Source: Oceaniferula marina (GTDB lineage: Bacteria > Verrucomicrobiota > Verrucomicrobiia > Verrucomicrobiales > Akkermansiaceae). Taken from it: a stretch of DNA of 64,000 bases. Location of the stretch: positions 558,001-622,000 of the forward strand of contig NZ_JACBAZ010000004.1 in NCBI RefSeq assembly GCF_013391475.1, given 5' to 3'. Within the stretch, counting starts at the first letter, position 1, and each line of letters opens with the position of its first letter. Positions 26,285 through 31,862 of the stretch are shown piece after piece. The position numbers and the translations under genes were made by a program. The notes beneath the pieces were generated by a model. The model had not been told where the DNA came from and searched no databases. It saw only the letters and a list, made by a program, of their open reading frames with translations.

Positions 26285-27850
26285 TCACCATTGGTCTTCC
26301 TGATGATCATCCATCCAATTGCGCTGGTTGTTTCTCCGCCTCTCTGCCCGGTGCTGCCTTTGACGAATCTGTTTCGGGCTCAGAGGTTTCTCCCCTGGGG
26401 CTGGTTTACGTCCCGCCATCATACATCCGCGGGGCTCTATTTTGGCCAACACAGAGGCCAAAGCAAATGTTTCAATCTGTTCCATCACTTTTGCCGCGGG
26501 TTTGTATCCCACCGGAGTCTCCGTGATATCTGCCTGCCCCTGGTACCAGCGAACTTTGATACCCTGTGTTGTGCGTTTCATCTCGTCGTCCATTGCCTTC
26601 AAATCGAGCTGACCTCTTCGTTTGTATTGCTTCAAGATTCCCCTGCGGGAAAGATTCCGCCCAGCTCCATGAGGGGCAAACGAGTTGAACTCCTGTTGAT
26701 CACCACCCAAAACAAGCAACACAGGCTCAGCCATATTCAACGGAATCAGTCCTAACCTTGGACGTCCGGAATCATCCTTCCATGCGGGGGTAGCCCCTTT
26801 GCCATGCACATACTCACGGCCACGTTGCCAGACAAAGTTATGCTGATTGCCCAACTGCCACAAAGACGCTTGCCCCAGCCCGTCTAAAAACCGCTGGTGA
26901 ATGCTCGCGTGATTGGCCCGTGTCCAGCGAGATAGATACTGTAACGCCTGCCAATAATCCTGTCCCTGCGAGCTATCAGCATAAATCCATGCCGCCTCCT
27001 CAGGAATCCCCCGAGCGTAACGAGCCGTCATTTTTACAGCTGCTTCCAACCCGCGACCATACACGACCGAACCTAATCCCCGTGAACCATGATGCGTAAC
27101 CAAAACGTTCAACGAACTACCGACATCCTCAAGCAAAGCAGTCGCCATCTCTGCATACCCAGCCTCATTCAACCTGCTCAGCAAGGTTTGGGTTACCTCC
27201 ATACACCCCAAATAAGCAAAATGATTTCCGTCTCCCTGATCCGCCATATGCCCGAGTGCTTTGGCCTCCAGGCCACGCAAAAAAGGATTCGACCACACAG
27301 GCTCATCCAACACCTCGTGGAACACAGGTTCACTCCTAACACCGGGACCAAAACGCGTCGCCTGCTCCAAAACATTTAATTCACTATCAATATCCTGGCC
27401 CTGACGATAAAAACTAACAAACATGGAACAACAAATATCGGAACTGTGTGCAGCGGGGATAATAGCATTTTCAGCAACAACCACGCCTCCTACGGGCATA
27501 CTTGCAGCACCACCACCCACCGGACAGGCGTCTGGCATCAACGACCCTCTGACAACCACCGGACATCTCATCAGCTCCTGCATTTGGCTTCTTACCTTTT
27601 GTAAATTCTTATGTTCACTCTCCGTATCGGCCACAATGGCCTCAGACAAAACAACAGGAGCATCCCCCGCCCCACGCATCGAGAGTGATGCATACGCATC
27701 GGGAAACTCCCTGCGTAACAGTTTCATTACATACTTAACATCCGAAATTCCTTTTTCCTGCATGATCAGGGAGGCTCGGTTCATAATCAAATCGAGCCTG
27801 TGGTCATTCGCCCAGCCGGCCTCGATAAAATCCAATCGATTCAGTTTCAT
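26285..27850 (-). CDS. rtcB: RtcB-family RNA ligase
   Basis: RtcB joins 2',3'-cyclic phosphate and 5'-OH RNA ends with GTP and manganese. The ATG at 27850 (MKLNRLDF) has GAGGAAG upstream and is preferred to the open frame to 27892. Catalytic signatures are present: DICCSM (Asp-x2-Cys), DGNHFAYLG, THHGSRGLG, QHNFVW and the guanylylated-His motif PHGAGRNLSR. The KGAT segment reads HGKGAT where many RtcBs have HRKGAT. At 521 residues it is longer than E. coli RtcB, with a basic tail (RQRQHRAERRRNNQRN). No rtcA or archease is adjacent. Confidence 0.9.
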   Translation of the reverse strand: MKLNRLDFIEAGWANDHRLDLIMNRASLIMQEKGISDVKYVMKLLRREFPDAYASLSMRGAGDAPVVLSEAIVADTESEHKNLQKVRSQMQELMRCPVVVRGSLMPDACPVGGGAASMPVGGVVVAENAIIPAAHSSDICCSMFVSFYRQGQDIDSELNVLEQATRFGPGVRSEPVFHEVLDEPVWSNPFLRGLEAKALGHMADQGDGNHFAYLGCMEVTQTLLSRLNEAGYAEMATALLEDVGSSLNVLVTHHGSRGLGSVVYGRGLEAAVKMTARYARGIPEEAAWIYADSSQGQDYWQALQYLSRWTRANHASIHQRFLDGLGQASLWQLGNQHNFVWQRGREYVHGKGATPAWKDDSGRPRLGLIPLNMAEPVLLVLGGDQQEFNSFAPHGAGRNLSRRGILKQYKRRGQLDLKAMDDEMKRTTQGIKVRWYQGQADITETPVGYKPAAKVMEQIETFALASVLAKIEPRGCMMAGRKPAPGEKPLSPKQIRQRQHRAERRRNNQRNWMDDHQEDQW

Positions 27851-28234
27851 TTTCTTTTCTTCCTCTATCAGTAAAAAATTCAGAGGGATCACCTGACAGA
27901 CATCATCCCACCATCGATCGAATTCTGTTTTTCACGTTCCGCTATCGAACAACCATGCTGATTGACGACGGGTTACTTGCCCCTCGGATCAATCAAGCCG
28001 AGGAGTCGGCTGTTGTAATCAATCAAGCAGAAGCTACAAACAAAAATCCACACAACGCCCATCAATCACCGCAACAAGCGGTCGGGCGCAGTCCAATCGA
28101 ATATGATTAGCGCTGGAGAAGCATGACCAAAGAACTAAGCCCCCCCTGGCAGGCTTGTCAAGCATCCATCTCAGCCATGGATTTTTACGATCGCATCATT
28201 GCTCTACGGATGTTTGCCACCGAAGAAAATACAA
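27851..28234. other. Spacer between the PBP gene end and rtcB
   Basis: 384 bases upstream of rtcB on the minus strand. It holds a 6-bp dyad (CCTCGG 27982-27987, CCGAGG 27998-28003, 10-base centre) and a short direct repeat ATCAATCAAGC (about 27988 and 28018). Two short open frames on the plus strand (27955-28110, 51 residues; 28123-28248, 41 residues) have no recognisable product. The rtcB promoter should be here. Confidence 0.45.
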
Positions 28235-30670
28235 TCAGTCCTCCCTGATCTCCACACGTCCGGGTTTATCGAGAAGAATCGCAGCAGCCCGGTCCAGATC
28301 TTCAAGTTGGTCAAAGTTCACGCTCGCACCTGTCTGCCGAGCTTGCCGCATCGCCAACTCATCCCTCGGAGCAAAATCGGGTTGTTCCGTTCCATAGGGA
28401 TCCACACCTAACAAAACAGGAGCCTGAGGTTGTACAGGGATGGCATGGGTGGTCATATTCTGTTGGTTTCCACCTCCGAAGTCGGTTGTTTTGGCAAGTG
28501 ACGGGTCAGACACCCCATGCACTTCACAAAACCCAGAAGGTGCGCGACCTTTGACAAAATATTCCGTATACGCTGTGCTTGTATAGGATTCCTCACCAGT
28601 GCGAACATTGCGAATGTAATTCTGGCAGTATCGCGTCTTTCGCCTACCGGAGTCCTTACAAATCTCCAGTTTCACAATACCCTCAGGCGCCGGAATCAGC
28701 GTGCCGGGGAACTCGGAGTCCGCCGCATTCATTGCATCGATCCAGACAGGCAATACCGTTTCCCGACTGAATGCCGCAGGGTAGATTTCATCCCGCCCCC
28801 CGTCGAGAAAACCTGACCACACAGCGCAGGTCACGCGGCTGTTGTATCCAACAAACCAGTTGTCGGCAAAATCATAGGTTGTCCCGGTTTTTCCCGCTGT
28901 GGAGGGGTCCGGCTTCAGCGTCTTGATCCCATCTGCTCCAGTCCCCTTGCGAAGCGAACTCTGCAACATACTATGCATCAAAAACGCATTCTGGGCAGTG
29001 ATCACCCGTTTCGGCGCGGTCGGCTTTTCGGCGGTGTAACGAACCACCCCGGAAGCATCCTCGATTTTATCGATGGCATACACCTGTTGGGGCGTCACTC
29101 CACCATTGGGAAATACGGCATAAGCACGCACTAACTCGGGTAATGATACGTCATCCGTGCCAACCAACATCCGGGCCAACAAATCCGAGTTGGGAATCAT
29201 CAGGCCGAAACGACGGGCGGTATTGGCCACCTTATCAAGCCCCAACTTTTTCCCCAGTCGAATCGAAGCGGCAATTTTGGAAACCTCCATCGCATGCCTC
29301 AAGGTGATGTCACCTTCATAACTAGGAGTAAACGACTCTTCGCCCCACTCACCGAGGACTCCTTCCCTGCCATCGAGCATCACATTGCGGTTATCCATCG
29401 GCTTATCCAAAACGAGATTGGACAGAGACATCTTGTTTTCCAACGCCGCAGTATAGATGAAGGGCAAAAAGGCGGTGCCCAGAGGCTTTTTTCCGGATTG
29501 AATGAAATCATACTGGGAATGGGCAAAATCACGCCCCCCGACGTAGGCGATCAAAGCCCCGGTCCGACTTTCAATCATCAAACCTGCCCCTTGCACGTAC
29601 TTGGGTTTCCCGCTGCCCATTTTGTAATCTTTATACAGCGGGTGCTTGTAGCCTTCTTTGAGTTCAACCGAATCCAACTGGCGCTTGAGACCTCGCTCCA
29701 TGGCTCGCTGCGCATCCAAATCAATGGTCGTGTAAATTTTAAACCCACCTTCGGTCATGGCATCTTCACCCAAGTGCCCACGCACAAAACCCGCAATCCG
29801 ATCATACAAATGAGATGCTCCCCGGCGAATCGGCTGGGGATTCACCTCCACGGGCAAAGCCTGCAGCTCCTTACTTTTCGAGCTGGAAATGTAACCATCA
29901 TCCGCCATTCGACCCAGAACCTGATCCCGGTTCTTCTTATTCTCCTCCAGATCATTGAGCGGTGAAATTCTGGTCGGGTTCCGAATACAGGCAACCAAGG
30001 AAGCGCACTCGGACGCCGTCAGGTCGCGAGGCTCTTTGCCAAAATAGCCAAGTGCCGCTGAGCGAATCCCGTAATAGCCACTGCCGAAAGGAATCCGGTT
30101 GAGGTAAAACTCGAGAATTTCGTATTTCCCATAACGTTCTTCGATGCGCAGGGCAAGAAACGCCTCCACGGCCTTACGCTCCAAGCCGCTTTCTCCACGC
30201 TTGTCTGATTCCTCTTTGAGGTGGAAGGCATTTCGGGCCAACTGCTGGGTAATGGTACTGGCCCCCTGGGTCTGACGCCCGGCCTTGTAGTTCAAGTATG
30301 CCGCCCGAATCACCCCGGCCCGGTCAACACCATCGTGCTCAAAAAACCGCTGATCCTCACCGGAAATCAAGGCCTGGATCATAATCTCGGGAACATCCTT
30401 GATGCTGATCTTATCTCGGTTTTCGACAAAAATACGACCCAACTCGCGCCCTTTGCGGTCCAAGATCAGGCTCACCACCTCCACATCATCAATCTTACTC
30501 AGATCGTAGGTTTCCGCTCTTTCGCGGTATGGCTTGGTTTTCACATCGAATACCACCCAACCGGCCCCGGCCGCCCCTAAACCAAGAATCATGAGATAGA
30601 GCAACCATTTGAGCTTGAAAAACCGCTTTTTTCGCCGCTTGTTGCCTGTGCTGGAACGTTTTTTTGCCAT
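28235..30670 (-). CDS. Class A PBP-like protein with active GT51 and degenerate transpeptidase domain
   Basis: 811 residues: basic cytoplasmic tail, one membrane anchor (about 22-42), glycosyltransferase GT51 domain with EDQRFFEHDG (catalytic Glu105) and GASTITQQLARN (136-147), then a penicillin-binding domain. In the latter the SxxK serine and lysine of the usual GSSFKPF are replaced (GTAFLPF; Thr399, Leu402) and the SxN motif reads SKI (464-466), while KTG (594-596) is kept. The protein should polymerise glycan in the periplasm but probably cannot cross-link peptides by the normal acyl-serine route. It is divergent from the MidA-like gene. Confidence 0.9.
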   Translation of the reverse strand: MAKKRSSTGNKRRKKRFFKLKWLLYLMILGLGAAGAGWVVFDVKTKPYRERAETYDLSKIDDVEVVSLILDRKGRELGRIFVENRDKISIKDVPEIMIQALISGEDQRFFEHDGVDRAGVIRAAYLNYKAGRQTQGASTITQQLARNAFHLKEESDKRGESGLERKAVEAFLALRIEERYGKYEILEFYLNRIPFGSGYYGIRSAALGYFGKEPRDLTASECASLVACIRNPTRISPLNDLEENKKNRDQVLGRMADDGYISSSKSKELQALPVEVNPQPIRRGASHLYDRIAGFVRGHLGEDAMTEGGFKIYTTIDLDAQRAMERGLKRQLDSVELKEGYKHPLYKDYKMGSGKPKYVQGAGLMIESRTGALIAYVGGRDFAHSQYDFIQSGKKPLGTAFLPFIYTAALENKMSLSNLVLDKPMDNRNVMLDGREGVLGEWGEESFTPSYEGDITLRHAMEVSKIAASIRLGKKLGLDKVANTARRFGLMIPNSDLLARMLVGTDDVSLPELVRAYAVFPNGGVTPQQVYAIDKIEDASGVVRYTAEKPTAPKRVITAQNAFLMHSMLQSSLRKGTGADGIKTLKPDPSTAGKTGTTYDFADNWFVGYNSRVTCAVWSGFLDGGRDEIYPAAFSRETVLPVWIDAMNAADSEFPGTLIPAPEGIVKLEICKDSGRRKTRYCQNYIRNVRTGEESYTSTAYTEYFVKGRAPSGFCEVHGVSDPSLAKTTDFGGGNQQNMTTHAIPVQPQAPVLLGVDPYGTEQPDFAPRDELAMRQARQTGASVNFDQLEDLDRAAAILLDKPGRVEIRED

Positions 30671-30734: not shown

Positions 30735-31862
30735 ATGAACGCAACCCCGGCTTTTGACCGCACCCCCTCACCACTGATGGAGGAAATTCTCCACAGCATC
30801 CAGCAAGCGGGCCCTCTCAACTTTAAAGCCTACATGGCGATGGCCCTCTACCACCCTCAATGGGGGTATTATTCCGGCCATCGCCAACGCGTGGGAACCG
30901 ACGCCGACTTTATCACATCGGTGAGCGTTGGCCCCTGTTTTGGCATGTTGCTGGCACGACGGATTCTGACTCACTGGCAAGAATCTCAAAACCCTGAAAG
31001 CTATCATATCATCGAACCGGGCGCCCATCACGGCGAACTCTGCTGCGACATCCTCGACACCCTCGCCAAGCTCTCACCGGATTGCTACCACTCCGTCAGA
31101 TACCACTTGGTTGAAACCACTCCCGCACTGCGTGCAGCTCAGGAAAAACGCCTCGCCTCTCGGCATCCGGACAAGTATCACACGCATACCAGCCTAGGCG
31201 AAATCAAACAAAGCATCGGTCCGGTGATAGGCACGATACTTTCCAACGAACTGATCGATGCCTTCCCAGTCCACCTGATTCAATCCAACAATGGGGAATG
31301 GCAGGAACTCATGGTCGAATCCGTGGATGGGGAAACTCTGACCCTGGCGGCCCACCCATTATCCTCAGCCGAACTCATCGCATTCTGCCAATCGCTGGGG
31401 CGCCACTACCCTGACGGATACACCAGTGAGTATAATTCAGGGATCGATCGCTTTGTCAACGATGCCGCTGAGCTCCTCAAATCCGGACTGATGATTACCA
31501 TCGATTACGGTCACGCCCAGGACGATTATTATCACCCGGACCGCACCAGCGGAACCCTGCAAACCTATTACCGACACCAAAAGTCGGACAACCCACTGCT
31601 CCACCCCGGCGAAATTGACATCACCACTCACGTCGATTTCACCCGCTTGCAGCACGGTGCCGAGGCCCGGGGGTTCCATTCCGCAAGCCTCCGAACCCAG
31701 GCAAGTTATCTGACCGAACAGGCTCGTGAATGGTTGCTGGATATCGAAAACCCGGACAGCACGAACCACCCGGACACCCCGAAACTTCTGCGCCAATTCC
31801 AAACCTTGATTCACCCGGCCATGCTGGGAACCAAGTTCTCGGTCCTGGAAATGTCCCGCTGA
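30735..31862 (+). CDS. MidA/NDUFAF7-family SAM-dependent methyltransferase
   Basis: 375 residues from the ATG at 30735 (MNATPAFDR); the frame extends upstream to 30609 but would overlap the divergent PBP gene. Family marks: FKAYMAMALYHPQWGYYSG, the SAM motif IIEPGAHHGELCCDIL, the signature SNELIDAFPV, TIDYGHAQDDYY and DITTHVDFTRLQHGAEARGF. Mitochondrial NDUFAF7 methylates an arginine of complex I; bacterial targets are unknown. Domain PF02636-type assignment is firm, the target is not. Confidence 0.88.
   Translation: MNATPAFDRTPSPLMEEILHSIQQAGPLNFKAYMAMALYHPQWGYYSGHRQRVGTDADFITSVSVGPCFGMLLARRILTHWQESQNPESYHIIEPGAHHGELCCDILDTLAKLSPDCYHSVRYHLVETTPALRAAQEKRLASRHPDKYHTHTSLGEIKQSIGPVIGTILSNELIDAFPVHLIQSNNGEWQELMVESVDGETLTLAAHPLSSAELIAFCQSLGRHYPDGYTSEYNSGIDRFVNDAAELLKSGLMITIDYGHAQDDYYHPDRTSGTLQTYYRHQKSDNPLLHPGEIDITTHVDFTRLQHGAEARGFHSASLRTQASYLTEQAREWLLDIENPDSTNHPDTPKLLRQFQTLIHPAMLGTKFSVLEMSR

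Follow-up and report, generated by a model that had tools for sequence, protein, structure and literature searches.

Class A PBPs are usually treated as bifunctional penicillin targets and are counted as such in surveys. The motifs of the transpeptidase (TP) domain are given as SxxK, SxN and KTGT in the part of the source drawn on here (PMC4810414). In the cited portions of two further papers, Akkermansia is recorded with an ordinary class A PBP (PMC8406291), and Verrucomicrobium spinosum is described as having canonical peptidoglycan composition and sacculi, with its three ftsI/mrdA/pbp genes being essential; a gene-deletion method is in place for its strain DSM 4136 (PMC12283558). An earlier sequence-only reading of the locus described below had pointed to the unusual peptidoglycan synthesis of the PVC group; as the cause of an aberrant PBP this was rejected, since the peptidoglycan of V. 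spinosum is reported to be canonical in that portion of PMC12283558. No account of a naturally TP-dead class A PBP was recognised in the open-licence literature, searched by titles and the starts of abstracts.

The window, that is, the whole stretch of 64,000 nucleotides of Oceaniferula marina DNA that was analysed, carries a class A PBP gene whose features are collected in Table 1. Its GT51 domain was matched by Pfam Transgly (PF00912, E 3.3e-57) and contains Glu105 and Glu169, which we take to be the catalytic residues from their role in E. coli PBP1b, while its TP domain was matched by Pfam Transpeptidase (PF00905, E 1.2e-16; 61.3 bits against a cut-off of 22.1). The hydrophobic N-terminal segment, judged by its sequence, is a probable membrane anchor and is covered by a helix at residues 11-54 in an AlphaFold2 model. 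When the protein was scored for the features of class A PBPs, the GT51 domain, the TP fold and KTG(T) were found and SxxK and SxN were not. By residue index the relevant positions are T399, L402, S464, K465, I466 and K594-T595-G596, the last of which continues as KTGT (594-597). HMMER alignments to solved class A PBPs (chains 4oon, 5u2g and 3udf) placed GTAFLPFIY on the SxxK block in 3/3 cases, and in the same three alignments SKI fell on the SxN block. The sequence-only reading had described intact GT51 motifs, Thr399 and Leu402 in place of the SxxK serine and lysine, Ile466 in place of the SxN asparagine and KTG as the sole intact TP motif, and all of these assignments stood.

The same reading had raised the case of a true SxxK lying elsewhere in the domain. 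This was ruled out by the alignments, in which TAFL falls on the SxxK block, and by string positions: none of the five other SxxK strings in the whole protein (at 262, 264, 392, 572 and 724) is at the catalytic place, the nearest being SGKK at 392, 7 residues upstream, and the single SxN string in the whole protein (at 783) is outside the TP domain.

Table 1. Features of the class A PBP locus, in window coordinates.
Feature	Position	Strand	Basis or remark
Class A PBP gene, GT51 plus pseudo-transpeptidase domain (putative), 811 aa	28235..30670	-	ATG start
Hydrophobic N-terminal segment, residues 19-41	30548..30616	-	Sequence
GT51 glycosyltransferase domain, residues 75-255, Glu105 and Glu169 present	29906..30448	-	Pfam
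Transpeptidase-fold (TP) domain, residues 362-611	28838..29587	-	Pfam and model
TAFL in SxxK position, residues 399-402	29465..29476	-	Alignment and residue index
Lineage signature loop, residues 426-445, DNRNVMLDGREGVLGEWGEE	29336..29395	-	
SKI in SxN position, residues 464-466	29273..29281	-	Alignment and residue index
Intact KTG, residues 594-596	28883..28891	-	Alignment and residue index
Methyltransf_28 gene, head-to-head neighbour	30735..31862	+	From first ATG; frame from 30609

Motif scoring across relatives, as proposed with the sequence-only reading, was performed on a lineage set of 94 rows from 94 genomes, in which identical rows had been merged; the set was delimited by ranking on BLAST score and was afterwards checked with a tree of the 67 rows that remained once it had been thinned. 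It spans 16 family codes (f1 and f1A being one family divided in two), all of the same class. The GT51 residues E105, D106, K166 and E169 were kept in 94/94 rows. At position 399 threonine was found in 93 rows and serine in one (G050), and since 93 of the 94 rows carry threonine there, a base-call error at Thr399 was ruled out. Position 402 was Leu in 36 rows, Thr in 22, Phe in 21, Lys in 9 and another residue in 6, while position 466 was Ile in 52, Asn in 36 and another residue in 6. KTG was exact in 69 rows and read KSG in 14, with other letters in 9 (including KTS in 3/92 and QTS in 2/92, so that this motif too is lost in a few rows) and a gap in the remaining 2. All 21 named loci outside the 94 (L046-L066) were TxxF or TxxL with SxI or SxL. 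What had been read as a single odd protein is, on these alignments, a member of a class-wide lineage.

A homologue was found in 58/58 genomes of relatives, and an orthologue in 35 of the 36 among them that belong to the same family. The exception, G027 (96% complete), has the intact paralogue only, and the lineage gene is therefore dispensable in that genome. Public loci with matching proteins came from Akkermansiaceae and other Verrucomicrobia. When 288 genomes of the phylum were searched with a profile, 44 had a match at E 1e-60, and each of the 44 shares at least the class with O. marina; in one of these (G094) the match is an intact paralogue.

The motif residues were retained throughout the comparison sets. 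All were kept in the intact paralogues (20/20), and PbpC-like rows kept Ser, Lys, Ser and Asn in 13/13, one with KSG. Class A PBPs of other phyla kept S, K, S and N in 57/57 scorable rows; that set (n=59) consisted of the best matches to the window protein and is hence not a random sample, two of its rows being gapped at all scored sites and three more being without the KTG stretch. In a tree built from GT51 columns with the TP columns excluded (151 rows thinned at >75% identity to 124, with three short or cut lineage rows and one cut other row omitted), the 67 thinned lineage rows formed one clade (SH-aLRT 92), separate from the intact paralogues. The Ser/Thr distribution at position 399 required two changes on this tree. 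A single gain of Thr with a reversal in G050 would account for them, but gain and loss cannot be told apart from counts of this kind. G050 (locus L131; SAFK/SKN/KTG) is the only such lineage row and is nested among Thr rows; its SxxK would fit either return or retention. Positions 402 and 466 were associated across rows (57/62 versus 0/32), with a median p of 0.5 over 5 independent pairs in a tree test, and the tree test of coupling between 402 and 464 likewise had few independent pairs.

The Methyltransf_28 gene was found head-to-head with the PBP gene in 45/89 loci from several families, some of these loci repeating one gene, many having short flanks and one being misread via a long open frame. 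It was not found within the flanks examined in genus g3 or in families f3 and f29. Synteny thus agrees in part with one lineage. No functional link between Methyltransf_28 and the PBP is known, and the gene is shared synteny and no part of the enzyme. The domain scan of the window neighbours covered ten ORFs; an RtcB-family gene adjoins the PBP gene on the same strand (26285-27892).

Active class A PBPs carry WxPxN between SxxK and SxN, with P444 in 18/20 paralogues and 47/57 rows from other phyla, and N446 in 19/20 and 50/57, respectively. At this place the lineage has a loop with the consensus, drawn by eye, DNRxVMxGGxxGILGEWGxE, which ends in VLGEWGEE in the window protein. Individual residues were conserved as E441 (92/94), W442 (91/94), G443 (93/94) and E445 (93/94), W442 being common to the lineage and the active enzymes. 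E441, G443 and E445 occurred together in 90/94 lineage rows and in 0/20 paralogues, 0/57 rows from other phyla and 0/13 PbpC-like rows; an alignment-free search for GEWGxE gave 87/94 lineage rows and 0/90 others. Lysine-keeping lineage rows also carry the GEWGxE loop, which therefore arose near the lineage base. In the AlphaFold2 model of the window protein (mean pLDDT 83.7) the TP fold is present, T399 opening helix 398-411 and KTG lying within strand 592-597, and the best solved fold matches were E. coli PBP1b and H. influenzae PBP1A. A second model, built with lineage rows only as input, was worse overall (mean pLDDT 72.3), and the signature loop was of low confidence in both. The TP domain is thus predicted by the model to be folded.

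The TP domain is under purifying selection: its dN/dS was 0.02-0.14 in 12/14 close pairs, the other two being saturated and some of the twelve near saturation. With the open frame, this low dN/dS ruled out a pseudogene. The mean TP/GT rate ratio was 1.62 for the lineage versus 1.02 for the paralogue (153 non-independent pairs, same 18 genomes). In a comparison at matched GT distance, again of non-independent pairs and with four motif columns left out, the median ratio at a distance of 0.6-0.8 was 1.68 for rows with TxxL or TxxF and SxI (hydrophobic type; 312 pairs), 1.23 for TxxT/GxN rows (44 pairs), 1.17 for lysine-keeping rows (9 pairs) and 1.16 for intact paralogues (60 pairs). At 0.8-1.0 the corresponding values were 1.54, 1.16, 0.90 and 0.98, while the lowest distance bin ran in the opposite direction for lysine-keeping rows (1.32, 2 pairs) versus intact ones (0.89, 3 pairs); the lysine-keeping set comprised 8 rows and 28 pairs, including the one SxxK row. 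On the matched-distance ratios, relaxation tracks loss of the lysine and SxN residues and not the Ser-to-Thr change.

Four GT51 genes are present in the O. marina genome (97% complete), namely the window PBP, an intact class A PBP, a short GT51 gene and a PbpC-like gene (contig C8; SALK/SLN/KTG). The intact class A PBP (contig C2, 608036-610042; SIFK/SRN/KTG) is the second such protein that the sequence-only reading had proposed looking for. Directly after it lies the short GT51 gene (C2:610309-611334; in locus L011, 6184-7827, a 548-aa frame), which has lost SxxK, SxN and KTG; GT51 residues were kept in 11/11 short GT51 rows of the same family. The short GT51 genes group among intact paralogues in the GT tree and therefore represent a separate TP loss. 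The genome also holds three PF00905 genes without GT51, each with all three motifs present, 13 YkuD (L,D-transpeptidase-type) matches and 2 SEDS matches. Two genomes of genus g5, both 90% complete, yielded no GT51 gene other than that of the lineage; subject to this incompleteness, a protein with a degenerate TP site would have to supply the GT51 activity of these cells. Each of the two has three other PF00905 genes, at least one with all three motifs. A further candidate for such a genome (G129) was dropped because of masking next to its other TP match; an apparent 24,349-aa frame there is the masked stretch itself.

The window protein is likely to be a membrane-anchored GT51 polymerase with a conserved pseudoenzyme TP domain, other enzymes carrying out the cross-linking. 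A polymerase whose PBP domain is non-catalytic, as first suggested by the sequence-only reading, is the best reading because GT51 is intact and the nucleophile serine, general-base lysine and SxN asparagine are gone. Some other members of the lineage have retained TxxK/SxN/KTG and are perhaps not inactive. With its catalytic residues intact, the GT domain would polymerise lipid II to glycan strands. With the nucleophile serine, the activating lysine and the SxN asparagine all replaced, the TP domain would be unable to form the usual acyl-enzyme; it may be kept as a folded module, probably, at a guess, a docking or regulatory platform bearing the GEWGxE loop. Gene content suggests that strands would be cross-linked by class B PBPs, the intact class A PBP or L,D-transpeptidases. 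Serine may have given way to threonine at the lineage base, with the lysine and SxN residues lost later by two routes, one leading to a polar type (TxxT/GxN) and the other to the hydrophobic type (TxxL or TxxF with SxI), to which the window protein belongs by its residues. Several observations count against this explanation: KTG is retained (exact in 69/92, KSG in 14/92) more than plain decay predicts; Thr399, kept in 93/94 rows, could serve in chemistry instead of structure; the association of positions 402 and 466 has few independent events behind it; G050, with SAFK/SKN/KTG, lies inside the clade; and G027 is without the lineage gene.

The retention of KTG or KSG, together with the fold kept in the model and the low dN/dS, would also suit a TP domain that is a non-catalytic binder of stem peptide, in which the peptide would be held by KTG and the loop, and the growing glycan strand would be clamped or gated for the GT domain. 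We regard this as a minority possibility: should the pocket be filled by L402 and I466, a peptide might find no room, and KTG too is lost in a few rows (KTS 3/92, QTS 2/92). A tentative history that we rate no higher concerns the origin of the lineage. The lysine-keeping rows are constrained like active enzymes, and the lineage may therefore have begun as a class A PBP with a threonine nucleophile, of which TxxK members still work and others lost the chemistry as the loop took over. TxxK/SxN with KTG or KSG is retained in 7 rows (families f2, f5, f14 and f43). Were this history true, those rows would be working transpeptidases, perhaps weakly penicillin-sensitive, the two-type loss in other branches would have left the loop with a regulatory or peptide-binding task, and the outcome would be a class-wide family of pseudo-transpeptidase polymerases.

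That the TP domain of the window protein is itself still active, with Thr399 as nucleophile aided by KTG or a glutamate of GEWGxE, so that the protein remains bifunctional, appears improbable. Threonine in 93/94 rows, the co-occurrence of E441, G443 and E445 in 90/94, the mostly kept KTG and the constraint on lysine-keeping rows all speak for such chemistry; against it, the lysine and SxN asparagine have become hydrophobic residues in the window's type, the TP domain of that type evolves at 1.5-1.7 times the rate of GT when distances are matched, and no Thr-nucleophile PBP came up in a single literature search for one. Least probable of all is a decaying, functionless TP domain in a gene kept for its GT half only, for although the TP/GT rate ratio is raised, motifs are lost in many branches and the short GT51 genes of the family could be a further stage of TP loss, TP dN/dS is 0.02-0.14, GEWGxE is present in 87/94 rows and the full-length domain is kept across 16 family codes.

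For the window's family, we infer that the TP half is a pseudoenzyme, and likewise polymerase activity, the absence of penicillin binding and a task for the loop. The class-wide lineage, in its 16 family codes, represents a selected class A PBP in which the cross-linking half is changed at the key serine and mostly at the lysine too, and it may separate polymerisation from cross-linking in nature. A polymerase that is not acylated by beta-lactams is predicted. The natural series SxxK, TxxK, TxxT and TxxL or TxxF would offer material for studies of the passage from transpeptidase to pseudoenzyme.

Among known systems, the window protein shares its domain order, GT51 residues and TP fold with the PBP1A family (TIGR02074; 5hlb, E. 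coli PBP1b; 5u2g, H. influenzae PBP1A), which gave its best matches by sequence as well as by fold, and scored 428.8 with NCBIfam TIGR02074 (PBP_1a_fam), under the curated cut-off of 508.75 bits. It differs from bifunctional class A PBPs in that SxxK and SxN are replaced and the GEWGxE loop stands in place of WxPxN. In its predicted GT51-only activity it would resemble the monofunctional glycosyltransferases (TIGR02070; score 108.6, under the cut-off of 182.65 bits) but, unlike them, it retains a whole transpeptidase-fold domain. The short GT51 genes of the same family have, as in the window protein, kept GT51 residues and lost TP motifs; unlike the window lineage, they have lost KTG as well and group with the intact paralogues.
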